64,000 nucleotides of DNA from Gemmatimonas sp. (GTDB lineage Bacteria > Gemmatimonadota > Gemmatimonadetes > Gemmatimonadales > Gemmatimonadaceae). The DNA is taken from assembly GCA_025361705.1 (NCBI GenBank), contig JANYJW010000059.1:1-64000 (forward strand). The letters are read 5' to 3'. Shown in pieces: positions 47,764-64,000 of this stretch. The notes under the pieces were generated by a model that was given only the letters and a program-made list of their open reading frames with translations, made no database searches and was not told the DNA's origin. The translations under genes were made by a program, and so were the position numbers. The number at the start of each line of letters is the position of its first letter. Position 1 is the stretch's first letter.

Positions 47764-48851
47764 GCGATATCACCCTGCCACCGGGAGCGCCGCGCGTACT
47801 GCAGGCGCTGCTCGCCGACTTCCTCGCGGGGCGCAAGGCGGCGCTCGCGCGCATCGTGTCCATGGTCGAGGATGGACGAAGCGGCACCGACCTCCTGCTG
47901 GCTGCACTGCATCCGCGGGTGGGCCGTGCGCGGCGCATCGGGCTCACGGGCCCGCCGGGTGCGGGCAAGAGCACCCTCACCACCGGCCTTGCGGCGCTGC
48001 TTCGCGCACAGGGCCTGACGGTTGGCATCGTGGCCGTCGACCCCACCTCGCCATTCTCCGGCGGTGCGTTGCTGGGTGACCGCGTGCGCATGGAGGCGGT
48101 CGCCCTCGACCCCGGTGTCTTCATTCGCTCCATGGCCACGCGCGGCTCGCTGGGCGGGCTCGCCGGCACCACGCGCGAAGTCTGCGACGTGCTCGATGCC
48201 TTTGGGTGCGACCGCATCCTCATCGAGACGGTGGGCGTCGGGCAGAGCGAGCTCGACATCGCCCGCACCGCCGATACGTCACTCGTGGTGCTGGTGCCCG
48301 AAGCCGGCGACTCCATTCAGACGCTCAAGGCGGGCCTGATGGAAATTGCCGACGTCTTCGTGGTGAACAAGGCCGACCGCCCGGGCGCCAACCGGCTGCG
48401 CAACGATATCGATCTCATGCTCGGCCTGCGGGGCGGACATCACATGAAGAACGTCCCGGCGCACCACGGCATCGACCTGCGCCGCGTCGGCGTGGCATCG
48501 GCCGTTGCGATGCCGCCCGCAGACGCCGGCCCGCACTGGGCGCAGCCGGTGCTGCGAGCGGTCGGCGTGACAGGCGAAGGACTGCCCGAGCTGATGGCCG
48601 CCCTCGACGGGCACTCCGCGTATCTTGCAGAGAGCGGCGAGCTGGACGTGCGGCGTCGGGCGCGCCTGCGCGAACGAGTCAAGGATGTGGTCTTCCAGCG
48701 CCTGACGCGCCGCCTGTGGCACGATGCAGCAACCAACGCATGGATCGACGCCCAGGTGGGCGACCTCGCCGCAGGGCGCACCACCCCGTATGCCGTGGCT
48801 GACGCGCTGCTCCTGAAAAGCGGTGCCCTGATGACCGGAGAACCCGCATGA
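47760..48851 (+). CDS. meaB: MeaB/ArgK-type G-protein chaperone of B12-dependent mutase
   Basis: A 363-residue SIMIBI-class GTPase that loads and protects the adenosylcobalamin mutase. Walker A is GPPGAGKST (residues 64-72); [33 protein letters not shown] and the guanine-specificity motif VVNKAD are present. The gene runs straight into the mutase large-subunit gene (ATGA overlap), the classic partnership. The C-terminal dimerisation arm ([16 protein letters not shown]) is intact. Confidence 0.95.
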
Positions 48852-50539
48852 CCACCCAACCCGACCTGGAAGCATCCCTCGACGCCATGCGCGCGGAGCT
48901 CGACGAGTTGCGCGCCCAGGTGGCCCGCTGGCAGGCGCGCTACGCCAAGGGCGAGACGCGCAGCGTGGCGTGGACCAACTCGGCGCGCGAGATCGCCCCG
49001 CTGTACACGGCGCTCGACCTCGAAGGATCCGGCGGCACGGCGTTTGAGGTGCCCGGCGCGTTTCCGTTCACGCGTGGCATTCACCCCACGGGATACCGCG
49101 GCAAGCTGTGGACCATGCGCCAGTTTGCCGGGTTCGGCTCGGCCCGTGAAACCAACGAGCGCTACAAGTTCCTGCTCGGGCGCGGCACCACCGGCCTGTC
49201 GGTGGCCTTCGATTTTCCGACGCTGATGGGCTACGACTCCGACCATCCGCGGTCGGAAGGCGAGGTCGGCAAGTGCGGCGTGGCCATCAGTTCGCTGGCT
49301 GACATGGAAACGCTGTTCGACGGCATCCCGCTCGACCAGGTGTCGACGTCGATGACCATCAACGGGCCGGCCATCATCCTGTGGTGCTTCTACATCGCCG
49401 CCGCCGAGAAGCAGGGCGTGTCGCCAGCGCAGCTGCGGGGCACCATCCAGAATGACATCCTCAAGGAGTACATGGCGCAGCACGCGTGGTGTTTCCCCAT
49501 TGAGCCCGCGCTGCGTCTCATCGTCGATTGCTTCGACTGGGGGGCGGCCCACGCGCCCCAGTGGAATACCGTCTCCATCTCGGGCTACCATATTCGCGAG
49601 GCCGGCGCCACGGCCGCACAGGAACTGGCGTTCACGCTGGCCGATGGCTTCACATACGTGGAACGCGGCATCGCGCGCGGCCTCGATGTCGACGAGTTCG
49701 CGCCGCGCCTGTCGTTCTTCTGGGACATCCACAACGACTTCTTCGAGGAGATCGCGAAGTTGCGCGCCGCGCGCCGCATCTGGGCGCGCCACATGCGAGA
49801 CCGCTTCGGGGCAAAGAACCCGCGTAGCTGGGTCATGCGATTCCACTCCCAGACGGCCGGCGTGACACTCACCGCGCAGCAGCCGATGAACAACGTCGTG
49901 CGCGTCGCCTACCAGGCACTCGCCGCCGTCCTCGGCGGCACGCAGTCGCTGCATACCAACTCCATGGACGAGACCCTCGCCCTTCCCACCGAGCACGCGG
50001 TGGAGGTGGCCCTGCGCACGCAGCAGGTGATGGCGTACGAGACGGGCGTGGCGTCGGTCATCGATCCGCTGGGCGGCTCGTACTATGTGGAGAAGCTCAC
50101 CGACGACCTCGAGCGCGAGGCCGAGGAATTGTTCGCCCAGATCCACGAGCAGGGCGGGGTGGTGCGCGGCCTCGAAGACGGCTGGTTCCAGAAGCGCATT
50201 GCCGAAAGCGCCTCGCGTCAGCAGTGGGAAATCGAGCAGCGTCGCAAGCTGGTGGTGGGCGTCAACGAGTTCGTCACCGACGAGACGCTGACCATCCCGC
50301 TCCTCAAGATGGACGAATCGGCCGCTGCGCAGCAGACAGCGCGGCTCGGCGCGCTCCGCGCCTCGCGCGACAACGCCCTCGTGCAGCGGCACCTCGATGC
50401 CCTGCGCTCGGCGGCGCGCGGCACGGAGAACGTGGTGCCGCACATCCTGAATTGCGCCCGGGCCTACGCCACGCTGTACGAAATCCGCGCCGCGCTCGAA
50501 GACGTGTTCGGGGCGTACCGCGAGCCGGTCTTCTTTTGA
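48848..50539 (+). CDS. Methylmalonyl-CoA mutase-family large subunit with isobutyryl-CoA mutase-type active site
   Basis: A 563-residue substrate-binding subunit without its own B12 domain. The barrel is intact: [14 protein letters not shown] holds the conserved Tyr-His pair, and [15 protein letters not shown] and [16 protein letters not shown] follow. Two residues that bind the free carboxylate in methylmalonyl-CoA mutase differ: Tyr89 (RQYAGF) is Phe93 here ([10 protein letters not shown]), and Arg207 (MVRNTY) is Gln211 (KEYMAQHAW). Phe and Gln are the residues of isobutyryl-CoA mutase, which moves a carbonyl-CoA group between isobutyryl- and n-butyryl-CoA. I infer a substrate without the second carboxylate. 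The probable B12-binding partner is at 60057-60470. Automatic annotation will likely say methylmalonyl-CoA mutase. Confidence 0.88.
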
Positions 50540-51321
50540 TGCGCAAGCGAGTGACGGCTGCCACCGCCGACTGGTGGCGATCGTATTTCGACGCCGGCTA
50601 CCTGCGCGAGTACGAGCCGATGTTCAACCTCACCGAGGATCGCCGGCAGGTGGCGCGGCTGCTCGACCTGCTCGCCTTGCCGTCGGGCGCGCGGGTGCTC
50701 GACTGTCCGTGCGGTCAGGGGCGACACGCGCACCTGCTGGCCGAGGCGGGCTTTGACGTCGATGGCATCGACTTCTCGGCGCCACTGATCGACGCGGCGC
50801 GCGGGCGTGGAACCGGACGCACCCTGCGCTACCGGCGCGGCGACATGCGGCGCCTTCCGGCGGGCTGGTCGGGGCGCTTCGATGCCGTGGTCAACCTCTT
50901 CACGTCGTTCGGGTTCTTCGCCGATCCGCGCGACGATGCCACGGTGCTGCGCGAGTTCGCCCGGGTGCTCAAGCCGGGCGGCGTGCTCCTCTGGCACGGC
51001 GGTGACCGCGACGGCGTGATGGCCAAGTTCGTGTCCCGCGACTGGTGGACGACGGCCGACGGCACGCTGGTGGCGCAGGAACGCAGCTTCGACCCGCTCT
51101 CGGGGTTCCTCACCGTGGAGTCGTGCTGGCGCGGACCCCGGCTCAGCGAGGACCGTACGCATCGCATCCGACTCTACACGCCCACGCAACTCGCCGACCT
51201 CATGCGCGATGCGGGATTGATCGTGGAGCAGGCGTTCGACAGTTTCAGCACGCACCCGCTCGGCCGACGGTCGAGCGAGATGATGCTGCTCGCGCGCAAG
51301 GAGTCGCTGCACGTCCCCTGA
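50539..51321 (+). CDS. Class I SAM-dependent methyltransferase
   Basis: A 260-residue soluble enzyme with a Rossmann methyltransferase core. The SAM loop is RVLDCPCGQGRHAHL (residues 52-66), the acidic end of strand 2 is VDGIDFSAPLIDAA, and the post-loop strand is VNLFTSFGFFAD. The C-terminal part (FLTVESCWRGPRLSEDRTHR) is like that of methyltransferases with small-molecule substrates; the substrate cannot be named. It overlaps the mutase by one base (TGATG), so the two are co-expressed. Confidence 0.82.
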   Translation: MRKRVTAATADWWRSYFDAGYLREYEPMFNLTEDRRQVARLLDLLALPSGARVLDCPCGQGRHAHLLAEAGFDVDGIDFSAPLIDAARGRGTGRTLRYRRGDMRRLPAGWSGRFDAVVNLFTSFGFFADPRDDATVLREFARVLKPGGVLLWHGGDRDGVMAKFVSRDWWTTADGTLVAQERSFDPLSGFLTVESCWRGPRLSEDRTHRIRLYTPTQLADLMRDAGLIVEQAFDSFSTHPLGRRSSEMMLLARKESLHVP

Positions 51322-51695
51322 GCACCGGAGCCCCCCGATGCCCGGCCGATCCTCAAACACGTGCGCGCCGTCATGCACGATGCGGCGCCGGACATCGACG
51401 AAGACATCAAGTGGTCGATGCCCTGGTTCTGTTACCAGGGCAAGCTGTTGGCGTACATGTCCGGGTTCAAGGCGCATGCGGCGTTCGGCTTCTATCGAGG
51501 CGCCGACGTGATGGGCACTGGGGCAGAGGTACGCACGGCGATGGGAGGCTTCGGTCGCCTGGCCAGCGTGCGCGACCTGCGGTCCAAGACGGTCATCCGG
51601 CTACGTGAAGAAAGCCATACCGCATCGCCGTCACCATTGCCCAGGTGCGCGAGGGCAAGTCGCAGAACTGGAAGTACGAGACCAGGCGGCGCTAG
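51322..51695 (+). pseudogene. Remnant of a DUF1801 (YdhG-like) gene
   Basis: In-frame from the base after the methyltransferase stop, the sequence reads PEPPDARPILKHVRAVMHDA, then DEDIKWSMPWFCYQGKLLAY and GGFGRLASVRDLRSKTVI, a clear DUF1801 core. There is no start codon or N-terminal helix. At about 51598 one extra base shifts the frame (YVKKAI continues in another frame), and a second shift at about 51620 restores TIAQVREGKSQNWKYETRRR to a TAG at 51693-51695. A truncated 5' end and two frame changes mark it as dead. Intact relatives are small YdhG/iron-chaperone-like proteins of unclear role. Confidence 0.75.
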
Positions 51696-52129
51696 GGCGC
51701 CCGCACCACCGCCATCACGGGGAGGGTGCGCCCGCCGGCAAAGGTCAGCACGATGGGCAGCGAGTCGCCCGCCGCGAGCGCGCGGCGCAGCCCGTTCACC
51801 ATCAGGTGCTTGGCGCCCTCGGCGAGCACCAGCGAGTCCCCACCGGCGTTCACCAACGCCGAGTCGAGCGGCATCATGTGCACCATGCCGTTCATCGCCA
51901 TCGTCTCGTGCAGCGTCACGGTCTCGGCCACAGGCGACGACGCAGCGAAAAGGAACACCGGTGCGCGCTCGCCATTGACCAGCGTCAGGTAGACCGCCGT
52001 GACCGTGCCCGAATCGGCCGTGCGAGCCCAGGCGCCACGCACGTGCAGGGTCGAGGTGGTCTCCGGGGCTGGGGCAGTTCCGCCGCACGCAGCGGCAAGG
52101 ACGATGGCACTGACGGCACCAAAGCGCAT
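51692..52129 (-). CDS. PCuAC-type periplasmic copper chaperone, lipoprotein
   Basis: A 145-residue protein with a lipobox (AIVLAAAC, Cys15), so probably membrane-anchored in the periplasm. The cupredoxin-like domain carries the PCu(A)C copper site: His74 (VTLHETMAMNG), Met85/Met86 (VHMMPLDS), His108 and Met110 (AKHLMVNGL), close to the H-x10-M-x21-H-x-M pattern. Family members deliver Cu(I) to the CuA or CuB site of cytochrome oxidase. No Sco or oxidase gene is adjacent. The ATG at 52129 is chosen for the signal sequence. Its 3' end overlaps the DUF1801 remnant by four bases. Confidence 0.88.
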   Translation of the reverse strand: MRFGAVSAIVLAAACGGTAPAPETTSTLHVRGAWARTADSGTVTAVYLTLVNGERAPVFLFAASSPVAETVTLHETMAMNGMVHMMPLDSALVNAGGDSLVLAEGAKHLMVNGLRRALAAGDSLPIVLTFAGGRTLPVMAVVRAP

Positions 52130-52189
52130 CACGACCTCACGAGTGGGCCGAACCGCCGGCACAGTGCCGCGCGGTTCGGCCGAAAGGTA

Positions 52190-52258: not shown

Positions 52259-53026
52259 TTACGGCGCGTCGTTGCCGCCGAAGGCGCTCTTGAGCCCACC
52301 CAGCAGATCCATCGTCACCGGCAGGATCGTGCTGTTCCCATTCGCGGACATCTCGGTCAGCGTCTGCAGGTAGCGGAGTTGCAGTGCCGGCGGGTTGGCG
52401 CGGATGATCGTCGCCGCCTTGCCCAGCGTCTCGGCGGCCAGGAACTCGCCGTCGGCGCGGATGATCTTGGCGCGCTTCTCACGCTCGGCCTCGGCCTGCG
52501 CAGCCATCGAGCGCTGCATCGATTCCGGCAACAACACGTCCTTGACCTCGACCACCGACACCTTGACGCCCCACGGTTCCGTGTGCTCGTCGATGATCTG
52601 CGCGAGCTTCTGGTTGATGCGGTCGCGCTCGCCGAGCAGCTCGTCCAGCGTGGACTGGCCGAGCACGCTCCGCAGCGTCGTCAGGGCAATCTGCGACGTC
52701 GCGCGGCCGTAGTTCTCGACGGAGATCAGCGCCTTGGCGCAGTCGACGACCTGGAAGTACACGACGGCATCCACCTTGATGGTGACGTTGTCGCGCGTGA
52801 TCAGTTCCTGCGGCTCGACGGTGAGCGTCACCACGCGCGTGTCGATCTTGAACATCTTGTCGACCAGCGGGATGATGACGTTCAGCCCCGGGGAGCGCAC
52901 CCCGACCAGCTTGCCGAGCCGCAGCATCACGCCGCCCTCGTACTGCTTCACGATCCGCACGCCAAACTTCAGCACGAAGATGACGAATGCGGCGGCAATG
53001 ATGTAGTTCACCATGTTCCTGTCCAT
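52259..53026 (-). CDS. SPFH/Band 7 (stomatin-like) membrane protein
   Basis: A 255-residue protein with one N-terminal hydrophobic anchor (about residues 5-20) and an SPFH domain (about 23-185: YEGGVMLRLGKLVGVRSPG, RVVTLTVEPQELITRDNV, SVVEVKDVLLPESMQ). A helical oligomerisation tail follows (AAQAEAEREKRAKIIRAD). Such proteins form ring-like membrane microdomains. The usual NfeD partner is not next to it. It starts 35 bases after nrfD on the same strand, with GGAGA nine bases before its ATG, so it may share the respiratory operon. Confidence 0.88.
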   Translation of the reverse strand: MDRNMVNYIIAAAFVIFVLKFGVRIVKQYEGGVMLRLGKLVGVRSPGLNVIIPLVDKMFKIDTRVVTLTVEPQELITRDNVTIKVDAVVYFQVVDCAKALISVENYGRATSQIALTTLRSVLGQSTLDELLGERDRINQKLAQIIDEHTEPWGVKVSVVEVKDVLLPESMQRSMAAQAEAEREKRAKIIRADGEFLAAETLGKAATIIRANPPALQLRYLQTLTEMSANGNSTILPVTMDLLGGLKSAFGGNDAP

Positions 53027-53061: not shown

Positions 53062-54303
53062 TCACGACGAAAACTTCGACCAGCCCTTCAATGGCCGGCG
53101 CACCTGCTCCTTCTCCTTCATCCAGGCCGCCGGGAAGGTGCTGACGTCGCCCCACAGCGGCAGCAGCCGCGAGAAGACGAAGATCACCACGAACGGCAGG
53201 CAGAGGATGAAGATGCCGGCGAGGAGTCCCTCGCGGCCGCCAATGTCGATCTGGAAGTTCAGGAAGCCGCGCAGGCTCTTCGAGAACATCTGCCCGCCCA
53301 TCACGACGTTCCAGCGCATCGCCGCCACCTGCGCGAGCAGCAGGACGCCGCACACCACGCCGATCACGTTGCGCACGCCGGGCGCGATGCGCTGCTTGAA
53401 CACCACCACCGCGCCCATCGCCAGGAACGGGATGACCGAGCCGAGCAGGATCTGGACGATGAACATGCTGAAGAAGAGCTTGGTCGTCACCAGCTCCTTC
53501 AGGATCACCCAGTCCTCGTTGGCCATGTACGCGTGGTTAATGAGCTCGAGCAGCTCCAGCGTCACGTCGATGATGAGGAAGTACCATGCCGTCTCGATGA
53601 GCGCGTTGGTGCACGGTCCGTCGATCTCGCGGCCGTTGATCCACTGGATGATGATGTAGCACACCAGCACCATCGCCACGCCCGACACGATGGCGCTGAG
53701 CAGGAAGATCACCGGCATCAGCGGGCTCGCCCACCAGGGGTTGGCCTTGATGGCGCCGAAGATGAATCCCACGTAGCCGTGCAGGCCGCACGCGGCCGGG
53801 ATGCCGATGGACGCCAGGAAGACCATCACCTTGTGATCGACGGCCTTGGCTTCCTCGGAAATGTCCAGCACGCCCAGCGCGAGCAGCCAGTACACCGGCT
53901 TGAGCGCGGGGTACTTCGTCTCGTTGTACAGATGGACAATATCCGTCCGGTACACGAGCCAGATCTCCACCGCGAGGATGAACAGGTACGTCGAGTAGAT
54001 GAACCCGAAGCCCGCCATCGCCGACGTCACGTTGGGCGTGAACATGATGTTCAGCGCCCGCTCGGGATGCCCCAGGTGGTTGAGCAGCGGCAGCGTGGCG
54101 AACAGGAGAAACGCGAACGCCATCACCATCGCGAACCGGCTGACCGGCTTCAATTCGTCCTTGTCGAAGACATGGTGCAGCGACGAGATGATGAATGCGC
54201 CGGCGACGATGCCCGTGATGTACGGGTACAGCACAATCATCGTCGTCCAGTAGATGTGCGCCTGATTGGGCAGGACGTACCCTTCGGTGATGTAGTGATG
54301 CAT
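53062..54303 (-). CDS. nrfD: NrfD/PsrC-family quinone-reactive membrane protein
   Basis: A 413-residue integral membrane protein with about nine to ten hydrophobic helices. It belongs to the NrfD/PsrC family, which exchanges electrons between the quinone pool and a partner Fe-S protein. Recognisable points are the opening QAHIYWTTMIVLYPYITG, LLNHLGHPERALNIMF and the charged DISEEAKAVDHKVM loop. The partner Fe-S gene lies one base upstream, so the pair forms a membrane-bound quinol (de)hydrogenase module facing the periplasm. No catalytic molybdenum subunit is encoded beside it. Confidence 0.92.
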   Translation of the reverse strand: MHHYITEGYVLPNQAHIYWTTMIVLYPYITGIVAGAFIISSLHHVFDKDELKPVSRFAMVMAFAFLLFATLPLLNHLGHPERALNIMFTPNVTSAMAGFGFIYSTYLFILAVEIWLVYRTDIVHLYNETKYPALKPVYWLLALGVLDISEEAKAVDHKVMVFLASIGIPAACGLHGYVGFIFGAIKANPWWASPLMPVIFLLSAIVSGVAMVLVCYIIIQWINGREIDGPCTNALIETAWYFLIIDVTLELLELINHAYMANEDWVILKELVTTKLFFSMFIVQILLGSVIPFLAMGAVVVFKQRIAPGVRNVIGVVCGVLLLAQVAAMRWNVVMGGQMFSKSLRGFLNFQIDIGGREGLLAGIFILCLPFVVIFVFSRLLPLWGDVSTFPAAWMKEKEQVRRPLKGWSKFSS

Positions 54304-54304
54304 G

Positions 54305-55135
54305 CTAGATCACCTCGGAGTCGAGGCCGATGTAACGGGTGCGCGGGCGGGTGCCGAGGTACGACTTGAGCACCTGCACGCGGTTGGTCGACAGGATCTG
54401 GCTGATCGTTGACGTCGGGTCGCTCACGTTGCCGAAGATGCGCGCCTCGGCGGGACAGGAGACCACGCATGCCGGCAGCATCCCCTTGGTGATGCGGTGA
54501 TGGCACCACGTGCACTTGTCGGCCGTCATCGTGTCGGGGTTCAGGTAGCGCGACCCGAACGGGCAGGCCTGCACGCAGTACGCACAGCCCACGCAGCTCT
54601 CGTGATCCACCAGCACCACGCCTTCGTCGGTCTTGAACGACGCTCCCACGGGGCAGACCTGGATGCACGGCGTGTCAATGCAGTGATTGCAGAGCTTGGG
54701 CACAAAGAAGCCGCGCACCGGCTGCACCGCCTCGAGGCCCGCCGGCATGTTCCGCGTGGGTCCGGGTTCGGCGAAGCCGTTCTCACCACCGACCGGAGAG
54801 TTCACCACCACTTCGCCGTCCGGGTAGAACGTGTATTGCTCCACCCACGTCCGGTTGTAGCCGTCGGGCACGGCGTTTTCCACGCGGCAGGCGCGCACGC
54901 ACGAGCCGCAGCCGATGCACTTGGTCGTGTCAACCACGAACCCGTAGATGATGCCCTTGCCGGCTTCGGTCTCGGCCTTCGCCTTCGCATTTGCCTGCGC
55001 CGCGTCCTGGGGCAGCCGCAGCAGCGACGTGTTGACGAACAGGCTGCCGAACAGGAAGCTCTGGCCACCTGTCTTGGCGACCGTCTCCAGGAAGTCGCGT
55101 CTGGTGACGTCGTCGGAGTTGAGGGGACTGGTCAC
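54305..55135 (-). CDS. Tat-exported four-cluster ferredoxin subunit (NrfC/DmsB-like)
   Basis: A 276-residue periplasmic Fe-S protein. The twin-arginine signal is TRRDFLETVAKTGG (residues 11-24). Four 4Fe-4S cluster motifs are seen: CIGCGSCVRAC, CNHCIDTPCIQVC, CVGCAYCVQAC, and CTWCHHRI with a later CVVSC. This is the standard electron-wire subunit between NrfD and a periplasmic acceptor. The GTG at 55135 is chosen because it starts the Tat signal and overlaps the tetrahaem gene stop (GTGA). A Tat signal on the Fe-S subunit itself suggests export without a catalytic partner. Confidence 0.93.
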   Translation of the reverse strand: MTSPLNSDDVTRRDFLETVAKTGGQSFLFGSLFVNTSLLRLPQDAAQANAKAKAETEAGKGIIYGFVVDTTKCIGCGSCVRACRVENAVPDGYNRTWVEQYTFYPDGEVVVNSPVGGENGFAEPGPTRNMPAGLEAVQPVRGFFVPKLCNHCIDTPCIQVCPVGASFKTDEGVVLVDHESCVGCAYCVQACPFGSRYLNPDTMTADKCTWCHHRITKGMLPACVVSCPAEARIFGNVSDPTSTISQILSTNRVQVLKSYLGTRPRTRYIGLDSEVI

Positions 55136-55692
55136 TTGGCCGCCGTCGTGAGGGAGGCGAGCCCCGACTTGCCTGGGGTCACCACGGTCGTGTGGGGATT
55201 GTGGCAGTCGACGCACTTCGAGTTGGGCGTATACGTGCCCTTGTGATCGGTGATGTGCCGCTCGACGCTCGCGATCGACTTCAGCGTGCTCGGCCGCTCA
55301 AACGTCTTCAGGTGGCACCATTTGCACTCCTGAATGCCAGTCGGACGCTTGATGGCGTTCTTGTTCTTCAGGATCTTGTCGGCGTAGCCCTTGGTCGAGT
55401 CTTCGGCGACGACCTTGGTGTGCATCAGCCCGGGGCCGTGGCAGTTCTCGCACTGCGGCGTGTGGTGCTTGCCCGCCTTCCACATGGCGGCAATCTCGTC
55501 GTGGCACTCGGCGCAGGCCGCGCTGCCGATATGCCGCGGCTCGCGCTTGGCCTCGTCATCGATCGCCGACAGGCGGTAGTGGCCCTTGATGCCATAGTCC
55601 TTTGGCACCACCAGCGAGCGCACAAAGAGAAAGCCGACCACCGTAATGGCGACGAGGGCCAGCAGACGCACAAAGTGCCCCGCATGCCGCAT
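55132..55692 (-). CDS. Membrane-anchored tetrahaem c-type cytochrome
   Basis: A 186-residue protein with one N-terminal membrane anchor (about residues 8-27, VRLLALVAITVVGFLFV). The periplasmic domain has four CxxCH haem sites: CAECH (60-64), CENCH, CKWCH and CVDCH, with further histidines as likely second ligands. Size and layout resemble small NapC/CymA-like or cytochrome c3-type carriers without being a clear NapC. It would take electrons from the Fe-S/NrfD pair and pass them to the outer-membrane decahaem. A GAAGGGG ribosome site precedes the ATG at 55692. Confidence 0.88.
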   Translation of the reverse strand: MRHAGHFVRLLALVAITVVGFLFVRSLVVPKDYGIKGHYRLSAIDDEAKREPRHIGSAACAECHDEIAAMWKAGKHHTPQCENCHGPGLMHTKVVAEDSTKGYADKILKNKNAIKRPTGIQECKWCHLKTFERPSTLKSIASVERHITDHKGTYTPNSKCVDCHNPHTTVVTPGKSGLASLTTAAK

Positions 55693-55721
55693 GTGCTGAC
55701 CCCTTCAGGAGGGTAACCAGT

Positions 55722-55747
55722 GTGTGGCGAATTGGGGGGCGCCACAC
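55722..55747 (-). other. Hairpin in the leader of the tetrahaem gene
   Basis: GTGTGGCG (55722-55729) pairs perfectly with CGCCACAC (55740-55747) around a 10-base loop, about 30 bases upstream of the tetrahaem start. It could shape RNA processing or translation inside the operon. Confidence 0.4.
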
Positions 55748-55772
55748 GGAAAGTACAGCGCCGCACGCACGA

Positions 55773-55801
55773 CGGCGATAGGGAACCATTCCCTATCGCC
55801 G
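55773..55801 (-). terminator. Intercistronic hairpin after the MtrB-like gene
   Basis: A 13-bp perfect stem (55773-55785 with 55789-55801, core GGCGATAGGGAA) with a 3-base loop lies 18 bases after the barrel gene stop. With no U tract it may act as a partial terminator or as a 3'-end protector that sets the ratio between the outer-membrane pair and the quinone module. Confidence 0.5.
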
Positions 55802-55819
55802 CCGCGCCCTGCGGTCAGG

Positions 55820-58210
55820 CTAGAACGTCGAGCGACCCAGTTCGTGCGGCAGCGCCGACGGATGCCAGGAGACCGTGAAGGTCAGCCAGCCGGCCTTGTA
55901 CGGATTGTAGTTGTTGCCGAGGAAGTGGTACTGCCCCGTGGCGCACGTGGCGTTGCCAACGGTGGTGCACGCCGCGCCGATGTTGCCCGGCAGGTTGCCG
56001 GTCCACGTCGTCGCCGCCGGACCACCGAGCAATCCGGTGCTCGTGAACTGCGGGGCTTCCTGCTGCCAGTTGTGGTTGGTGTACGTCTCGGAGTTGTACC
56101 GGAACGTGAACCCCCAGTTGGCGTTGGCTGCGTACTGCACGGCCAGCGTCACCGGCGTCAGCTTCGACGACACTTCCGGCCAGTCCTCGGCCTTGGCCGT
56201 CAGGATCTGGGCCGCCGTGGCGCCCTGCGCGGCCGCGCCATCCGGCGAGCCGTTGTAGTTGGAGTTCAACAGGTGGAACGTCCCGTCGATCACCGACACG
56301 GTGGCCTTCACCGTCAGCTTGTCGGGGATGAGCACGGCGTTGACGCTGGCGAACGTGGTGGTGTTCGCGTCCTTGTTGGTGCTCGAGAAGTAGAACAGCG
56401 GGTTGTCGAACAGCGGCGACGACACCGTGCTCACCGCGCGATAGCGGTAGAGGGTGACGTTGTCGACGTTCTCCCGGGCATACCCGGCGCTCAGGCTCAG
56501 GCGGCTCACCGGCGTCCAGTCGATGTCGACGCCCGTGGTCGTGCTCTTGTCGCTCTGCATGCCAAAGCGCGACTCCGGATACTTGTCGTCGCCCGTCTGG
56601 AACGACAGGCCGACGCTCACCTGATCGACCGGCGTGATGGTCGCCATCACGTTGGTGCGCGTCCGGTCCCGGTTGGCCATGAAGAACTTGCGGTTGCCCG
56701 AGACCTCGATGGCCGATTCCGTGTAGTGGCCCCAGAAGCGGCGCTGCGACGTGGTGTAGCTGCTGTGCAGCGACAGCCAGCTCAGGCCGCTGTAATCCAG
56801 GCTCACGCGCGGGATCTTCTCGCGCGTGCCGTCCACTGCGAACACGCCGGGCTCGCGCGTGAAGTCCTCGACCGCATACCCGACGGCCACCGAGGCGTTG
56901 CGAGCCAGCTCATACGCCGCGCTGACGTCCGTGTTGACCTTGGTGAACGGATCCCACTCGGTGTTCTGCTGCGTCGCGTCAATCTGACGGTCGCTGCGCG
57001 CCCAGTTCAGCGTGCTGTCGGGCGGCGTCTGGTTGCTGTAGCTGTGATTGCGGTACTTCGCGCCCAGCGTCAGGCGGGCAATCGGATGGCTCGTCGCGCT
57101 CACGTTGACCGTCGTCAGCTTGACCTTGCCCTGAAGGCTCGGGCGCTGCAGCGCGGTCAGCGCCACGTTGGGCGCCGCGAGCATCGCCGAGTTGTTGAAC
57201 TGCGGCAGATACGCGTCATTCTGCTCCTGCACCGACGTGTTCAGCGAGCCCGTGACCCGCGTGCGGAACGGCAGCAGCACCGCACCGACGAAGGACATGG
57301 TGGACGCCGAGTTGCTCGGTGCCACGCTGACGCGCGCCGTGTTCGTGCCCCAAATGGTGCTCGAGGCCATGGTCGTCGCCCACGCCGCCGTGCTCAGCGC
57401 GGGGTTGTCCACCATCACTTCGGTGATTGCGTTGTTGTACTTGGAGTACTCCAGCGCCACGGTGCCCTGGTAGCTCTTCAGGATATCGCCGAGGAAGTTC
57501 GCCTTGGTCCGCGGGCCCGACGCATAGGACTGCGCGACCCGGAAATTGTTCACCGTCTCGTCGATCGGCGACACGTATTCGCGCTGCGGACCGCCCGAGC
57601 CGTTGAAGCTGATCGACTTGGGCAGGCCGCCCTTCTTGCCGATCGTCGTGAAGTTGGCCTGGAAATCGGCCGCCTCGCTGAAGGCGTAGTCGAGTGTCGC
57701 CTTGATCGGCGTCCAGATCGTCCGGATGTTGCCGATGTACGGCGCGTTCTTCCAGGCGGTCGAGTCGGGGCGCGGCGACGGCAGGGTGTTGAAGCCGAGG
57801 GCGGCTGCGCCCTCGTTGCCCGGCGAACGGCCCGTGGACGAGTACAGGTGCGGAATGCGGTCGTAGCGGACATTGAAGTTGTACAGCCCGGGACGCGACG
57901 CCTGCAGCCACATGCTCTGGTCGAGCGCGCCGAGGCGGCGGAGCGTCAGCTGGTATGTGCCGTAGCCGTCCGCGGGGGTGTACTGCAGCCGGGCGCGCTC
58001 CAGGAGCGGGCCGGCAGGAAGGGACCGGTATTCCTCGAGCTTGCCCTTGTCGATGTCGGCAGGCTCGGTGGTGAAGGCGCGCGCACCGATCTCGGCGGCG
58101 GCAGTAAATGTGCCGGTGGTCTTCTTCGCCTGGGCCTGGCTCGTGGCGGGAACTGCCACAGCCAGCACACCGGCGAGGACGCACGCGGTCGCAAAGCTCA
58201 TTTGACGCAT
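55820..58210 (-). CDS. MtrB/PioB-family outer-membrane beta-barrel
   Basis: A 796-residue exported protein with a signal peptide (MRQMSFATACVLAGVLAVAV). The rest is a long run of alternating amphipathic strands with short turns, as in the 26-strand MtrB porin that sheathes a decahaem cytochrome. FNVRYDRIPHLYSSTGRSP near residue 120 and DFQANFTTIGKKGGLPKS near 180 are typical family blocks. The N-terminal CxxC of Shewanella MtrB is absent. The only cysteines in the mature part are Cys748 and Cys756, in a C-terminal loop that could form a disulfide. A GAGGAAA ribosome site is 7 bases before the ATG. The decahaem gene is 25 bases upstream, the usual pairing. Confidence 0.88.
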   Translation of the reverse strand: MRQMSFATACVLAGVLAVAVPATSQAQAKKTTGTFTAAAEIGARAFTTEPADIDKGKLEEYRSLPAGPLLERARLQYTPADGYGTYQLTLRRLGALDQSMWLQASRPGLYNFNVRYDRIPHLYSSTGRSPGNEGAAALGFNTLPSPRPDSTAWKNAPYIGNIRTIWTPIKATLDYAFSEAADFQANFTTIGKKGGLPKSISFNGSGGPQREYVSPIDETVNNFRVAQSYASGPRTKANFLGDILKSYQGTVALEYSKYNNAITEVMVDNPALSTAAWATTMASSTIWGTNTARVSVAPSNSASTMSFVGAVLLPFRTRVTGSLNTSVQEQNDAYLPQFNNSAMLAAPNVALTALQRPSLQGKVKLTTVNVSATSHPIARLTLGAKYRNHSYSNQTPPDSTLNWARSDRQIDATQQNTEWDPFTKVNTDVSAAYELARNASVAVGYAVEDFTREPGVFAVDGTREKIPRVSLDYSGLSWLSLHSSYTTSQRRFWGHYTESAIEVSGNRKFFMANRDRTRTNVMATITPVDQVSVGLSFQTGDDKYPESRFGMQSDKSTTTGVDIDWTPVSRLSLSAGYARENVDNVTLYRYRAVSTVSSPLFDNPLFYFSSTNKDANTTTFASVNAVLIPDKLTVKATVSVIDGTFHLLNSNYNGSPDGAAAQGATAAQILTAKAEDWPEVSSKLTPVTLAVQYAANANWGFTFRYNSETYTNHNWQQEAPQFTSTGLLGGPAATTWTGNLPGNIGAACTTVGNATCATGQYHFLGNNYNPYKAGWLTFTVSWHPSALPHELGRSTF

Positions 58211-58235
58211 GGTTGGGTTTCCTCTGTCGGTGGCG

Positions 58236-59159
58236 TTAGCGGGTGAAGAAGATGCCGGTCGGGTGGTTCGACCCGTGGATGACCGAGTGGCAGTTGACGC
58301 AGCCCTTGTTGTACGCGAAGCGCACCGAGGGCGCATCGGACGGACGCGCGGCCGGCTGGCCGTGCGGCGTGTTGTGGCACTGCTGGCAGAGGCGCGGCAG
58401 GGCCTGCTTCAGCATCCGCTGCTTGTTGCTGCCGTGCGAATCGTGGCAGTTGGCGCAGCTCTCGGTCACCGGCATGTGCTCCCACATGAACGGCCCGCGC
58501 TTCTCGGCGTGGCAGGAGAAGCAGGTCTCGTTCACCGACGAGCCAATGAGCAGCTTCTCGTTGGCCGACCCGTGCGGGGCGTGGCAGCTGATGCATTCCA
58601 TCTTGCCTTCGCCCAACGGCATGTGCGCGTACTTGCCCATCGACGCGGCCTTTTCCTTGTGGCAGTTGCCGCAGGTCGCCAGCACCGACTTCTGCCGCAG
58701 GCTCCCCTTCTCGGTCTTGTCGTGCATCACGACGTGGCAGTCGGTGCACGCGACGTTGCGCGACTCGTGCGCGCTGCCGACCCATAGCGTCCGCGCCGTC
58801 TTCTCATGGCACGCGAGGCAGGTGGCGTTGCGCGCAGCGACCGGCGTCTTGCTGGTGCGGCGATACGAAATCAGCGTGCTCTTGTCCTCGCCTCCCGACT
58901 CGGCGTGGCTCTTGGCAGGACCATGGCACGACTCGCATCCCTTCTTCGCGTGCTCGCTCGTCGGCTTGGCCATGATCGCCTGACCCATGCCCGTCTTCGC
59001 GAACGGCTCGAAAAACTCCTTGTGGCAATCCTGGCAGGCGGCGCTGCCGGCATAGCCGGCCTCGGCCTTCTGCTGGGCGCTGGCCTTTGCCGGCAGCAGC
59101 GCGAGCGTCACTGCCGTGACGCCGGCGCTCAGCCATCGCAGGTATCGCATTCCGTGCAT
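58236..59159 (-). CDS. MtrA/DmsE-type decahaem c-type cytochrome
   Basis: A 307-residue periplasmic cytochrome with a signal peptide (about residues 1-28, ending AKASAQ) and exactly ten CxxCH sites: CQDCH, CESCH, CLACH, CTDCH, CGNCH, CISCH, CFSCH, CANCH, CQQCH and CVNCH. Size, haem number and the MtrB-like gene next to it place it in the MtrA/DmsE/PioA group, which lies inside the barrel and carries electrons across the outer membrane. An excellent ribosome site, GGAGGAAT at 59164-59171, precedes the ATG by 7 bases counted from GGAGG. It is the first gene of the minus-strand electron-transfer run. Confidence 0.94.
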   Translation of the reverse strand: MHGMRYLRWLSAGVTAVTLALLPAKASAQQKAEAGYAGSAACQDCHKEFFEPFAKTGMGQAIMAKPTSEHAKKGCESCHGPAKSHAESGGEDKSTLISYRRTSKTPVAARNATCLACHEKTARTLWVGSAHESRNVACTDCHVVMHDKTEKGSLRQKSVLATCGNCHKEKAASMGKYAHMPLGEGKMECISCHAPHGSANEKLLIGSSVNETCFSCHAEKRGPFMWEHMPVTESCANCHDSHGSNKQRMLKQALPRLCQQCHNTPHGQPAARPSDAPSVRFAYNKGCVNCHSVIHGSNHPTGIFFTR

Positions 59160-59594
59160 TGCTATTCCTCCGGTGCCCGAAATCGGGCGGTCCAACTGGG
59201 GTGGGAAGTGTGACCGGGTGGGGGCGCTGAACTGCGGTGCAACTGGACTCATGGAGCAAACGACCACTATGTGATTATCGGATGACCTGCCCTCGTCTGG
59301 ACTACGTAATGGTACGCATTTCGGCTGGGCGTTTCCCCTACGTCTGGCAGGTAGATGGAGTATACGAGCAGTACAGCCGTTGTAAGTGGGGCGTTGCACG
59401 GAGCCGTAATGGGTGAAATCCCTGACGCGCGAGCGGGGGTTTCGCCGATGCCCGTGACCGCATTGCGCTGTCGCCTATCCACCGACAGCCCAGTCAGCGT
59501 GCGCCGCACCCACGCGAAAAGGCGTGGCGCTCACTCAGCGCCACGCCCTACGCCTGCCAGAGGTCTCGTGCGAGCGCGCTCGCGTGGTCGGGCG
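59160..59594. other. Largest intergenic region, upstream of the cytochrome/barrel genes
   Basis: 435 bases without a convincing gene, visibly less GC-rich than its surroundings. It should hold the promoter of the decahaem-led genes. A GATAAT hexamer on the minus strand (59279-59274) could be a -10 box, but no good -35 accompanies it. GTAATGG occurs at 59306-59312 and again at 59406-59412, exactly 100 bases apart; the first copy is joined to a TACGTA palindrome (59303-59308). The right end holds the terminator of the monohaem cytochrome gene. Confidence 0.5.
59517..59547 (-). terminator. Rho-independent terminator of the monohaem cytochrome gene
   Basis: A 10-bp stem (GGCGTGGCGC at 59521-59530 with 59538-59547), a 7-base loop and, on the minus strand, a TTTT tail at 59520-59517. 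It lies about 50 bases after the cytochrome stop and isolates it from the decahaem operon. Confidence 0.75.
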
Positions 59595-59930
59595 CTACGG
59601 CCTCAGCGATCGGATGTACCGAGCCAGGGCCGTCATCTCATCAGCGGACAACCGGTCCTTCCATGGCTTCATGTTCTTTCCCTTGCCATTGGTCAGCACC
59701 GCGAGGATGTCGGCGTCCGATCGCGTAGCGAAGAACGACTCGCCGTACAGCGGGATCTCGGGAAACATCTTCTTGATGGCGGGCGACGGACGCCCCGTGC
59801 TGCCATGGCACTTGGCACAGTTGGCCTCGAACAGCGCCTTGCCATCTGGTGCCTGGGCGGCGGCGCGCGCTGCGGCGAGCGTCGCGAAGAGACCGAACAG
59901 AACGAGCGAACGCATGGCGACGCTTCTCAT
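59595..59930 (-). CDS. Small monohaem c-type cytochrome
   Basis: A 111-residue exported cytochrome c. A signal peptide (about residues 1-26, ending ARAAAQ) is followed by the haem site CAKCH at residues 38-42, with Met residues in KKMFPEIP and [11 protein letters not shown] as candidate axial ligands. The C-terminal helix [11 protein letters not shown] is typical of class I cytochromes such as c-553/c5-like carriers. ATG at 59930 or 59915 are both possible. It is a separate unit with its own terminator but could shuttle electrons to or from the conduit encoded next to it. Confidence 0.88.
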
Positions 59931-60056
59931 GAATGGGGGGACACAGGCGCGGCAGGGCCATTTCGCGCGCGCCGTGCGCTGAATGTTAACCAAGTCATGC
60001 GTCCGTTCCGTCGGCCTTCTATTGCCGCCGCGCGCCGCTGCGGTTTATTTCCACCC

Positions 60057-60470
60057 ATGGAGAGACCCATCCGAGTGCTCGTTGCCAAGCCAGGGCTCGA
60101 CGGACACGACCGCGGCGCGAAGGTCGTGGCGGCCGCCCTGCGTGACGCCGGCATGGAAGTCATCTACACCGGCCTGCACCAGACGCCCGAAATGATCGCG
60201 AGCGCCGCCGTGCAGGAAGACGTCGACGTGGTGGGCCTCTCGATCTTGTCCGGGGCGCACATGACGCTCTTCCCGCGGGTGCGCGAGCTGCTCGCCGAGC
60301 AGGGACGCGATGACATCCTGATCACGGGTGGCGGCATCATCCCCAGGGAAGACATGGACAAGCTCAGCGCGCTGGGCGTCGGCCGGCTCTTTGGGCCCGG
60401 CACGCCGACCACCGAGCTGATCTCGTTCATTCGGACGTGGTACGCCGAGCGTCAGGCGCAGGACGCGTGA
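60057..60470 (+). CDS. B12-binding subunit of acyl-CoA mutase
   Basis: A 137-residue stand-alone cobalamin-binding domain. The His that coordinates cobalt is His17 in LDGHDRGAK (the DxHxxG motif, Asp15-His17-Gly20); the dimethylbenzimidazole pocket has [13 protein letters not shown] and [12 protein letters not shown]. It matches the small subunit of methylmalonyl- and isobutyryl-CoA mutases and should pair with the large subunit encoded 9.5 kb away (48848-50539). The ATG at 60057 is the family start. It overlaps the carboxylase gene by four bases (GTGA). Confidence 0.93.
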
Positions 60471-62083
60471 CCACGCGCCTTGCGGAGCTGAGCGACGAGG
60501 CCCGCGAACTCGAGCACCGGCTTCGCCTCGGCGGCGGCCCCGACAAGATCGAGCGTCAACACAAACAGGGGAAGTTGACGGCGCGGGAGCGCATCTCGCG
60601 CCTCAAGGACGCCGACACGCCCTTTGTCGAGCTCGGCTTGTTGGTGGCGTACGACAAGTACAACGGCGAGGCGCCCGCTGCGGGAGTCGTCACGGGGCTC
60701 GTGCACATCGGCGGCCGCCCGTGCGTGGTGGTGGCAAACGATGCGACGGTAAAGGCCGGCTCGTGGTGGCCCGAGACCATCGGCAAGATTCTGCGTGCGC
60801 AGGAATGCGCGATGCGCTGTCACCTGCCAATCGTCTACCTCGTCGATTCGGCGGGCGTGAACCTCCCGTACCAGGGCGGCGTCTTTCCGGGTCAGTACGG
60901 TGCGGCGCGCATCTTCTATTACAACTCGCTCATGCGGCGCTACCTGCGCATCCCGCAGATCGCCGCCGTCATGGGGCCGTGCATCGCGGGTGGCGCGTAC
61001 CTGCCCGCGTTGAGCGATGTCATCCTGATGGTGAAGGGCACCTCGTTCATGGGGCTCGGCGGCCCCAACCTCGTGCGCGGTGCCACTGGCGCGGTGATCG
61101 ACGGCGAATCGCTGGGCGGCGCCAGCACGCACACCGGCGTCTCGGGCGTGGCGCACTACGCCGTGGACGACGACGACGCCTGCCTGCTGAAGATCCGCGA
61201 CCTCGTGGGACGGCTCGCGCCGCCGGAGCGCGTGGCGCCATACGACGCCGACGCGGTGCCGGGTGCTGATCCGTCGACCCTCTACGACCTCTTCCCCAAC
61301 GATCACCGCATGCCGTACGACATGCGCGCGGTGCTGCGGACGATGCTGGATGACGGCGCCCTCGACGAATTCCAGCCCGACATGGCCCGCGAGATGATCT
61401 GCGGCGATGCGCGCATCGAGGGCACGCCGGTGGGCGTCGTCGCCAATCTGCGCGGTCTGCTCAAGGGGCCGCACGGCGAGGGCGCGCGCTTCGGCGGCAT
61501 CATCTATACGGAGAGCGCCGAGAAGGTGGCGTTCTTCATTGAACGCTGCGACCGGCAGGGCATTCCGCTGCTCTTCGTGCAGGACGTCTCTGGCTTCATG
61601 GTGGGCAAGGACGCCGAACATTCGGGCATCATCCGGGCGGGGGCGCATTTTGTGGAGGCCATGGCCACCACGAGCGTGCCCAAGATCGTGCTCACGCTCA
61701 ACCACGCGTCGGGCGCGGGCTACTACGCCATGGCGGGCCAGGGCTTCGATCCGGACTTCATCTTCTCGTGGCCCACGGGGCGCATGGCGGTGATGGAGGG
61801 CGAGTCGGCCGTGCAGGCGGTGCACGGCCCGTCGCTCGAGGAAGCCCGCAAGGCAGGCCTCCCGGTGTCCGACGAGTTGCAGGCCGCGGTGGAGGCGATG
61901 CGCGCCGACTACGAGCACCAGCTCGACGCGCGCTACGCGGCCGCGCGGGGATTTCTCGACACGCTGGTCTATCCTGATGACACGCGCACCGTGCTGGGCA
62001 TCGCTCTGCGCGCCACGTGGCAGAACCCCGGGCCGCATCTCGGCCCCTTTGTGTTGCCGAGCAGGCGTGGGAGTGGCGTATGA
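60467..62083 (+). CDS. Acyl-CoA carboxylase carboxyltransferase subunit (MccB/AtuC-like)
   Basis: A 538-residue biotin-dependent carboxyltransferase. Two crotonase-fold halves are seen: acyl-CoA-binding [18 protein letters not shown] with [19 protein letters not shown], then the carboxybiotin half with [38 protein letters not shown] and [19 protein letters not shown]. Features such as [20 protein letters not shown] are closer to methylcrotonyl-/geranyl-CoA carboxylase than to the propionyl-CoA type, but substrate cannot be fixed. The biotin carboxylase/biotin carrier subunit is not in the window. GTG start; followed by the AtuA-like gene with an ATGA overlap. Confidence 0.9.
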
Positions 62084-63441
62084 GCCGGACGGTACGCGTG
62101 GCGGGCGGGCAGGGCTTCTGGGGCGACTGGCCTGAGGCGCCGCGGCGGCAGGTGGATGGCGGCCCCATCGACTACCTGATGCTCGACTACCTGGCCGAAG
62201 TCACGATGTCCATTCTGCAGAAGCAGAAGGAGCGCGATCCGGCCATGGGCTACGCCCGCGACTTCGTGGGCGCCATGGAGAGCGTGCTCACGGCCGTCGC
62301 GGATCGTGGGGTGAAGGTGATCGCGAACGCGGGCGGCGTGAATCCCGAGGCGTGCGCTGACGCCGTGCAGGCGATGGCCGCCAAGGCCGGGCGCGCGGGC
62401 GCGCTGCGCATTGGCGTGGTGACGGGCGACAACCTGCTGCCGCGCATCGACGAGCTGCTCGCGAGCGGCCACGAACTGCGCAACATGGACACGGGCGAGC
62501 CGCTGTCGGTGGTGCGCGACCGAGTGATCGCAGCCAATGCGTACATCGGCTCCACGCCGATTGTCGAGGCGCTCGCCAAGGGCGCCAACGTCGTCATCAC
62601 GGGGCGATCCACCGACACCGCACTGACCATGGCGCCGCTGCGTCACGAGTTCGGCTGGGGCGCCACGGAGTGGGACAAGCTTGCGGCGGGGATCATCGCC
62701 GGGCACATCATCGAATGCGGGGCCCAGTGCTCGGGCGGCAACTGCCTGCACGACTGGCGCGACATTCCCAATCTCGCTGACATCGGCTACCCGATTGTCG
62801 AAGGCTCGGCCGATGGCACGTTTGTGGTCACGAAGCATCCGGGCACGGGCGGCCGAGTGAGCGTTCCCACGGTGACGGAGCAGCTGGTGTACGAGATGGG
62901 CGATCCACACGCGTACATCACGCCCGACGTGGTCGCCAACTTCGCGTCCATCCAGCTCGAGGATGCGGGCCTTGATCGCGTGCGCGTCTACGGCATCACG
63001 GGCGCACCGGCCACCGACAAGCTCAAAGTGTCGATCGCGTACAAGTCGGGCTACAAGGCGGTGGGCTCGCTGGTGTACGCCTGGCCCGACGCACTCGAAA
63101 AGGCGCAGGTGGCCGACCGCGTGCTTCGCGAACGGCTCGATCGCCTGGGTCTGACGTTTGAGAAGGTACTCGGCGAGTTCGTGGGCGCATCGGCCACGCA
63201 CGGCCGCCTCGCCGGCGATGCCGGTCGCGAGGCGCCCGAGGTGCAGTACCGCATCGGGGTGCGCGACGCCGACCGCAAGAAGGTCGAACGGTTCACGCGA
63301 GAGATCGTGCCGCTCGTGCTCAATGGCCCACCCAGCGTGACGGGTTTCGCCGGTGGCCGTCCCAAGGTGGAAGAGATTGTGGCGTACTGGCCCGCGCTGG
63401 TCGACAAGACCGTCGTGCGCACTGCGGTGGAGGTGCGCTGA
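62080..63441 (+). CDS. AtuA-like (DUF1446) acyclic terpene utilisation-type protein
   Basis: A 453-residue soluble protein of the DUF1446/AtuA family. Characteristic blocks are [15 protein letters not shown] at the start, [18 protein letters not shown] near residue 90, [19 protein letters not shown] near 180 and [20 protein letters not shown] near 225. AtuA is needed for citronellol/geraniol and leucine-isovalerate growth in Pseudomonas, but its reaction is not known. Association with a carboxyltransferase and an enoyl-CoA hydratase repeats the Atu gene neighbourhood. It overlaps both neighbours. Confidence 0.9.
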
Positions 63442-63797
63442 TGCGCATTCGGCTCATGGACATCGCCCACGCGCGGTCGGGCGACAAGGGCGACACCGCC
63501 AACGTTGGGGTCATTGCGCTGCGTCCCGAGTGGTATCCGCTGCTGGCCGCGCAGCTCACGCGCGACCGCGTGGCGCAGCACTTTGCGGGCATCATCGAGG
63601 GCGGCGTCGACCGCTACGAACTGCCCAACCTCAAGGCGCTCAACTTCCTGTTGCACGGGGCGCTGGACGGCGGTGGGACGCTCTCGCTCAAGACCGACGC
63701 ACAGGGCAAGGTCTTCTCGACGGCCCTGCTGCGCATGGAACTCGATATCCCCGATGCGGAGGCGGCCGCGCTTGGCCTGCCCGGAGCGACGACATGA
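63441..63797 (+). CDS. AtuA-associated small domain protein
   Basis: A 118-residue protein beginning LMDIAHARSGDKGDTANVG, the signature of the ferredoxin-fold domain found fused to the C-terminus of AtuA in other bacteria. Here it is a separate gene that starts on the last base of the atuA-like stop (TGATG). LPNLKALNFLLHGALDGGGT and a C-terminal strand complete the domain. It most likely forms a complex with the AtuA-like protein. Confidence 0.88.
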   Translation: MRIRLMDIAHARSGDKGDTANVGVIALRPEWYPLLAAQLTRDRVAQHFAGIIEGGVDRYELPNLKALNFLLHGALDGGGTLSLKTDAQGKVFSTALLRMELDIPDAEAAALGLPGATT

Positions 63798-64000
63798 CGA
63801 CGGAACCACGGCTCAAGATCGCCATGTTCGGGGGCATCGGGCGCGCCTCGCTGGCGCGCCCCGCGCTGCAGAACGCCCTCGACCAGCAGACCATCATTGA
63901 GCTGCGTCATGCGCTCGAGGAGTTCGAGGCCGATCCTGAGGTGCGCGCCGTGCTCATAACGGGCGAGGGCGACCATTTCTGCGCCGGCGTCGACGTCACG
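63794..64000 (+). CDS. Enoyl-CoA hydratase/isomerase-family protein, partial
   Basis: The first 69 residues of a crotonase-fold protein, cut by the window edge. RASLARPALQNALDQQTI replaces the usual N-x-P-x-x-x-N-A, and EADPEVRAVLITGEGDHFCA ends in the oxyanion-loop region (FCAGVDV). It overlaps the upstream gene by four bases (ATGA) and is part of the acyl-CoA operon. Whether it is a methylglutaconyl-CoA or isohexenylglutaconyl-CoA hydratase (the Mcc and Atu pathways) cannot be judged from this fragment. Confidence 0.87.
   Translation, partial: MTTEPRLKIAMFGGIGRASLARPALQNALDQQTIIELRHALEEFEADPEVRAVLITGEGDHFCAGVDVT

Follow-up and report, generated by a model that had tools for sequence, protein, structure and literature searches.

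The window analysed here, 64,000 nucleotides of contig JANYJW010000059.1 from a Gemmatimonas sp. genome (assembly GCA_025361705.1; Gemmatimonadota; 2.97 Mb, 93% complete), contains a cluster of electron-transfer genes at positions 53062–59159. The cluster comprises five complete genes, all on the minus strand, encoding in transcribed order an MtrA-type decahaem cytochrome, an MtrB-type outer-membrane barrel, a tetrahaem cytochrome, an iron-sulfur (Fe-S) protein, and an NrfD-type membrane subunit (Table 1). An initial annotation of this DNA had named five same-strand genes of these types, and coordinates, profile matches, and motifs confirm the assignment. That annotation missed a monohaem cytochrome c gene located just upstream, which corresponds to the monohaem gene that relatives have between their cytochrome b and MtrA genes; relatives carry the same gene upstream of MtrA or upstream of the tetrahaem/Fe-S/NrfD triplet. 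The match scores, and the gene order kept in relatives, exceed chance by far, and the gene content, families, gene order, and gene-content history described below are direct observations. The closest named relatives of the window genome are Gemmatimonadetes metagenome genomes, several of them from groundwater; because metagenome-derived genomes are incomplete, absences across the compared genomes are provisional, and counts of genomes are not counts of independent events.

Table 1. Features of the electron-transfer cluster and its immediate neighbours, in transcribed order.
Feature	Position	Strand	Basis
Small monohaem cytochrome c	59595..59993	-	Pfam Cytochrome_CBB3, 52 bits; likely start near 59915
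Terminator-like hairpin	59517..59547	-	11-bp perfect stem followed by TTTT, 3' of monohaem gene
MtrA/DmsE-family decahaem cytochrome, 307 amino acids	58236..59159	-	10 CXXCH; TIGR03508
MtrB/PioB-family outer-membrane barrel	55820..58210	-	PF11854; without N-terminal CXXC
Perfect inverted repeat in MtrB/tetrahaem gap	55771..55803	-	Read from sequence
Membrane-anchored tetrahaem cytochrome c	55132..55692	-	4 CXXCH; single membrane helix at the N-terminus
Tat-type four-cluster Fe-S protein, NrfC/TtrB/DsrO-like	54305..55135	-	GTG start; TRR motif; 16 Cys
NrfD-type quinone-interacting membrane subunit, 413 amino acids	53062..54303	-	PF03916, 134.6 bits; ortholog alignment and tree
SPFH/Band 7 protein	52259..53026	-	PF01145, 138 bits
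Copper chaperone of the PCu(A)C type, conserved downstream	51692..52162	-	PF04314, 94.5 bits

The first two genes encode proteins that resemble the components of known outer-membrane conduits. In particular, MtrA contains 22 His residues, enough for ten bis-His haems, scores 250 bits with TIGR03508 (DmsE family; cut-off 192), and aligns throughout the haem region to chain A of the S. baltica MtrCAB structure 6R2Q (E = 6.7e-57). MtrB scores 221.6 bits with PF11854 (cut-off 23) over profile positions 26–604 of 635, and falls under the stricter cut-off of TIGR03509 (165 vs 240 bits); its start is likely at 58210, not 58336, because the longer open reading frame overlaps MtrA. As a single sequence, MtrB shows no significant match to 6R2Q chain B (E = 0.04); as a profile, it matches Photobacterium MtrB (E = 5.7e-6, 85% probability, 443 columns). 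An N-terminal CXXC is absent from the window MtrB and from 17 other non-gammaproteobacterial MtrB proteins (a few of them without an exact N-terminus), and is present in Photobacterium MtrB, used as a control. According to the account of Wee et al. given in PMC12175506, the first Cys of this motif (C42) is required for ferric iron reduction in S. oneidensis. The claim that the locus has neither an MtrC/OmcA surface cytochrome nor a molybdopterin reductase holds: across the 93%-complete genome, no protein of the OmcA/MtrC family exceeds the TIGR03507 cut-off, and no molybdopterin enzyme adjoins the cluster. Plasmid searches with NrfD and MtrA returned remote relatives only, and supplied as controls the Photobacterium MtrCAB and the Aeromonas nrf locus.

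The remaining three genes form the tetrahaem/Fe-S/NrfD triplet. The tetrahaem cytochrome exceeds the cut-off of no curated family tested; it has no match to Pfam NapC_NirT and scores 20 bits with TIGR03153 (cut-off 134), and so is not of the NapC/NrfH type, and it has no match to the NetB/NrfB models even at E 10, with Aeromonas NrfB scoring 201 bits with the NetB model as a control. The Fe-S protein has a TRRDFLE twin-arginine translocation (Tat) motif and exactly 16 Cys residues, corresponding to four clusters; its best NCBIfam models are TtrB, DsrO, and NrfC, each under cut-off (173 vs 200 bits for DsrO). The NrfD-type protein has about ten helices at a relaxed hydropathy threshold. It scores 53 bits with the NrfD equivalog TIGR03148 (cut-off 348), and therefore is kin of NrfD, not NrfD itself; it likewise does not reach the DsrP equivalog (51 vs 350 bits), and a sequence search of solved structures gave none for it. 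The GTG start of the Fe-S gene overlaps the tetrahaem stop by 4 nucleotides (GTGA), and NrfD begins one base after the Fe-S gene, so the three genes look translationally coupled.

The hairpin that follows the monohaem gene was read directly, and is absent from the automatic terminator scan, which needs 5 T. Most MtrB genes of the window's MtrAB lineage also have a hairpin after them, with or without a triplet. Because hairpins follow both the monohaem gene and MtrB, the cluster is probably not one simple operon; the sequence signals point to two or three transcription units.

Comparison with relatives reveals that this MtrAB lineage is linked to a cytochrome bc complex. The order Rieske protein, cytochrome b with a fused c domain, monohaem c, MtrA, and MtrB is present at 11 loci of the window's family (L061, L063, L187, L188, L189, L194, L195, L197, L204, L209, and L212), and the identical order is present in two other families (L228, L231, and L234). 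MtrAB is adjacent or close to an alternative-complex-III-like cluster in three more genomes (L229, L230, and L233). The window MtrA falls inside the bc-linked clade of the MtrA tree (support 100/99). MtrB exceeds its cut-off in 27 of the 179 genomes of the family; outside the window's genus, cytochrome b is present in all 16 family genomes with MtrB and in 14 of the 152 without (Fisher p = 1.6e-14, not corrected for kinship), and because these genomes come from only five genera, the independent evidence is much weaker than this value. The window's genus departs from the pattern: the family-type cytochrome b, which the same query detects in 66 of the 179 family genomes, is present in none of 11 genomes of the genus, and was not found in the window genome. 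It is because the genus lost cytochrome b that the initial annotation could not see the Rieske/cytochrome b/monohaem c context. No description of a bc/MtrAB cluster in Gemmatimonadota was found in the literature searched, which is not proof of absence.

Near two of the relatives' loci there are monohaem proteins: one near a bc/triplet locus (L062, 2953–4227), with IPAWARRY just before CXXCH and PRL after it, and one near an MtrAB locus (L232, 11386–12774), with IPAFARMY and PKL at the same places. These sequences are close to the Cyc2 motif, AXPXFAR[Q/K][T/Y] (PMC8406198).

The initial annotation had treated the five genes as one unit, which comparison does not sustain. The order MtrA-MtrB-tetrahaem-Fe-S-NrfD was found in no more than five genomes, belonging to two genera (the window genome, G115, G083, G063, and G402; a contig end interrupts NrfD in G063, and MtrA is cut in G402). 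In G083 and G063, genes for the Rieske protein, cytochrome b, and monohaem c precede the five, a layout that suggests an ancestral arrangement Rieske/cytochrome b/monohaem c/MtrA/MtrB/triplet. In the sister species G031, G222, G065, and G175, the syntenic locus contains monohaem c and the triplet without MtrAB, indicating that the genus lost the bc complex and that several species also lost this MtrAB. With cytochrome b lost from the genus, no quinone-side component other than the triplet is left at the window locus. Of the 11 family genomes that carry the triplet, 10 have MtrB as well. In addition, the deltaproteobacterium RIFCSPHIGHO2_01_FULL_43_49 has MtrAB, Rieske/cytochrome b, and the triplet within 18 kb (L097 and L235).

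The triplet has a far wider distribution than this MtrAB lineage. Queried with the window NrfD at E 1e-40 or better, 33 of 395 Gemmatimonadota genomes have matches, and nearly every NrfD locus read has an Fe-S protein and a cytochrome with 4 or 8 haems encoded alongside, the exceptions being cut by contig ends. At least 578 NrfD relatives are present in the 84,980 species genomes scanned; among the best 80 of these, which include genomes of Myxococcota, Desulfobacterota-type bacteria, Planctomycetota, Methanoperedens, Chloroflexi, and Bacillota, the same triplet recurs, and outside the window's family none has MtrAB directly beside it. Overall, the triplet occurs at several hundred loci in other phyla, with adjacent MtrAB nearly always missing, and MtrB exceeds its cut-off in 5 of 50 triplet genomes of other phyla. 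Cytochrome b lies near the triplet at 13 of 26 other Gemmatimonadota loci and at 5 of 70 loci elsewhere. In the NrfD tree, whose deep branches are long and unsafe, the family's sequences group with those of a genome from Myxococcota (66% identity) and are separated from the remaining Gemmatimonadota triplets, a placement that suggests horizontal gain. The triplet is a separate, widespread module, probably gained from a Myxococcota-like source. A single conserved five-gene operon was considered and rejected: the triplet occurs mostly without MtrAB, and a hairpin lies between MtrB and the triplet.

Other genomes place the triplet beside other multihaem proteins. Its neighbours in Myxococcota-like genomes are giant cytochromes carrying 19 to 34 haem motifs (L127, L132, L144, and L107). 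In genomes of the Desulfobulbaceae type, NrfD is followed by an eight-haem cytochrome of about 530 amino acids (L111, L120, L137, L141, L156, and L165), which may act with this triplet as a terminal reductase or oxidase.

We interpret the cluster, with moderate confidence, as a trans-envelope conduit of the PioAB/MtoAB kind, built from two modules and connected to the respiratory chain at the level of cytochrome c and quinone. In the first module, MtrA would thread the MtrB barrel with haems exposed on both sides of the outer membrane, so positioned that its outer haems could contact a partner outside the cell such as Fe(II), a redox shuttle, or an Fe mineral; together with the neighbouring monohaem c, this module belongs to the lineage whose usual inner partner is the cytochrome bc complex. 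In the second module, the anchored tetrahaem, Fe-S, and NrfD proteins would form a quinone:cytochrome c oxidoreductase working like NetBCD or CbcSTU. The predicted path connects the outer partner, MtrA within MtrB, the tetrahaem and/or monohaem cytochrome, Fe-S and NrfD, and the quinone or oxidase side. We infer the formation of these complexes, the contacts among MtrA, tetrahaem, and monohaem c, the direction of flow, and the nature of the outer partner. The route between quinone pool and cell surface that the initial annotation proposed, with either direction possible, is supported, and MtrAB-type conduits can run either way (PMC10734462). PioAB and MtoAB conduits ordinarily lack MtrC; because PioAB, one decahaem and a porin with no apparent extracellular protein, oxidises Fe(II) (PMC6831781), the missing MtrC does not call for an unknown terminal enzyme.

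Known systems resemble parts of this arrangement. PioABC of Rhodopseudomonas palustris TIE-1 likewise has a decahaem and an MtrB-family barrel without an extracellular cytochrome; its inner side consists of a high-potential iron-sulfur protein (HiPIP), the photosynthetic reaction centre, and bc1, whereas the window has monohaem c and tetrahaem/Fe-S/NrfD, with no HiPIP in the cluster. The MtoAB/MtoD/CymA(ImoA) system of Sideroxydans lithotrophicus ES-1, with gene order mtoD-mtoA-mtoB-cymA/imoA (PMC12016527), shares with the window a monohaem c, a decahaem, a barrel, an anchored tetrahaem, and the lack of MtrC; the window differs in that its tetrahaem is not of the NapC/NrfH type and that Fe-S and NrfD genes come after. 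In Aeromonas hydrophila, MtrCAB and NetBCD also combine MtrAB homologs with an adjacent Nrf-type quinol dehydrogenase, but the window is without MtrC and PdsA, and its multihaem subunit lies outside the NetB/NrfB family. In Geobacter CbcSTU (Cbc4) and Shewanella SirCD, Fe-S and NrfD proteins link quinone and periplasmic cytochromes; CbcSTU includes a cytochrome c and resembles the window in gene content (PMC11434368), and, unlike the window triplet, neither system is encoded beside MtrAB. Iron oxidation through rus/pet in Acidithiobacillus resembles the MtrAB lineage in that electrons entering at the outer membrane are passed to a c-type cytochrome and a bc complex, with the difference that the outer-membrane protein is Cyc2 and that the window genome has lost its bc complex. 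The initial annotation regarded NrfD and Fe-S in place of CymA as unusual. The use is indeed rare, but it has precedents in NetBCD (PMC8805035 and PMC13393422) and in SirCD and CbcSTU (PMC11434368); NetBCD, beside mtrCAB, has been shown by experiment to serve an Mtr conduit as an Nrf-type quinol dehydrogenase.

Within this reading, electron uptake is somewhat likelier than outward respiration, because the bc and monohaem c neighbours, the mto-like gene order, the missing MtrC, and the missing MtrB CXXC all favour inward flow. Electrons would pass from outside to MtrA, to monohaem c, and to an oxidase, with some travelling via NrfD to quinone. More tentatively, the lineage may constitute a new class of MtrAB conduit that takes up electrons from Fe(II), minerals, or shuttles outside the cell and delivers them into the bc/cytochrome c segment of the aerobic chain, with the NrfD complex having replaced the lost cytochrome b link in the window's genus.

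Several points weigh against the reading set out above. Quinol oxidation is the usual activity of NrfD complexes and speaks for outward flow, and many homologous triplets occur in groups with outward transfer (Anaeromyxobacter, Methanoperedens, and Desulfobulbaceae). Neither RuBisCO nor a Cyc2-like protein was found when sought in the window genome, and autotrophic iron oxidation is therefore not indicated. The hairpins 3' of the monohaem gene and 3' of MtrB speak against a single transcript. Most species of the genus keep monohaem c and the triplet with no MtrAB at the locus (L055–L058), so the triplet may serve other partners, including other MtrAB pairs. Finally, AlphaFold2 models built from 3-sequence alignments had confidence values (predicted local distance difference test, pLDDT) of 34 for MtrA and 27 for MtrB, and were discarded.

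Outward respiration, in which electrons would move from quinol through NrfD, Fe-S, tetrahaem, and MtrA, with Fe(III), Mn(IV), an electrode, or a shuttle as the acceptor, is the strongest competitor, with a substantial chance of being correct that nonetheless stays below even. NetBCD adjoins mtrCAB in Aeromonas (PMC8805035 and PMC13393422), SirCD can substitute for CymA with ferric citrate (PMC11434368), and the outward-transfer groups just named carry homologous triplets. The window genome moreover has three MtrAB pairs, the other two being on contigs C68 and C7. Set against this account are the lack of any OmcA/MtrC protein over cut-off, the MtrB without N-terminal CXXC, and the high-potential setting of this MtrAB lineage, which is tied to monohaem c and a cytochrome bc complex.

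A second MtrAB lineage of the genus is accompanied by a two-component system (L191, L192, L193, L196, L200, and L205) and, at most loci, by cytochrome c maturation genes; it has no bc genes and no triplet.

It is unlikely, although compatible with either direction of flow, that the triplet and MtrAB are separate systems and neighbours by chance, the triplet linking quinone with monohaem c or other periplasmic cytochromes and monohaem c alone serving MtrAB. The rarity of MtrAB beside the triplet and of MtrB in triplet genomes of other phyla, the sister species with monohaem c and triplet alone, and the hairpin separating MtrB from the triplet are what such independence would produce; the order shared by five genomes of two genera, the presence of MtrB in nearly all family genomes with the triplet, and the unrelated deltaproteobacterium that has MtrAB, bc, and triplet close together argue otherwise.

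It is very improbable that MtrAB feeds, in the manner of DmsEF, a surface-exported reductase of a soluble substrate encoded elsewhere: Shewanella DmsEFAB does pair a DmsE-family decahaem, the family by which the window MtrA is named, with the DmsF barrel, and the genome has molybdopterin enzymes, but no DmsAB partner was found in it, none of its molybdopterin proteins is a surface dimethyl sulfoxide (DMSO) reductase by model cut-off, and a conserved catalytic reductase, looked for beside the MtrAB of relatives, was not found. Specifically, the molybdopterin proteins are a PhsA-like enzyme with its own NrfD (C27), formate dehydrogenase (C47), ActB (C28), a NuoG-like protein (C69), and a protein below every model cut-off (C58); a DMSO-type reductase as the missing partner was rejected, since these are other enzymes or below cut-off.

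Each half of the conduit is known. As far as the literature searched shows, what is new is the bc-linked MtrAB lineage of Gemmatimonadota and the history of replacement at the locus. Outer-membrane electron conduits are known mainly from Proteobacteria. An earlier survey reported one Gemmatimonadota MtrCAB (PMC8805035). If the conduit is confirmed, members of a phylum common in soil and groundwater gain a link from minerals to the aerobic respiratory chain, and the loci represent a natural series in which one conduit is combined with different quinone-side modules (bc, alternative complex III, or NrfD), so that what sets the direction of MtrAB could be tested by comparison.

The window genome encodes further quinone-side and multihaem systems. 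Contig C28 carries an alternative complex III, with ActB-like identity by partial QrcB/QrcC matches and the Act gene order. A DsrP-like NrfD (414 bits, cut-off 350) is encoded at G000:C39:154500-157100 (L019 7498-10045), with other redox genes alongside. On C38, a row of genes (L020, G000:C38:4139-11364) encodes a HybA/HmcB-like Fe-S protein, a HybB/HmcC-like membrane protein, a 13-haem cytochrome, response regulators, and a histidine kinase with a CXXCH motif, and is a possible second quinone-to-periplasm electron route. On C27 (L018, G000:C27:4915-10807), the PhsA-like enzyme with its Fe-S and NrfD proteins is divergent from the gene for an 11-haem cytochrome akin to ExtM, a protein of selenite/tellurite reduction operons.

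Downstream of NrfD, the Band 7 gene keeps its place across the genus (L054–L059). The electron-transfer genes sit in a genus-wide syntenic block (window 47760–51321 and 60437–63800) that resembles genes for propionate and branched-chain acid breakdown, with MeaB-like, methylmalonyl-CoA mutase-like, and acyl-CoA carboxylase-like proteins.

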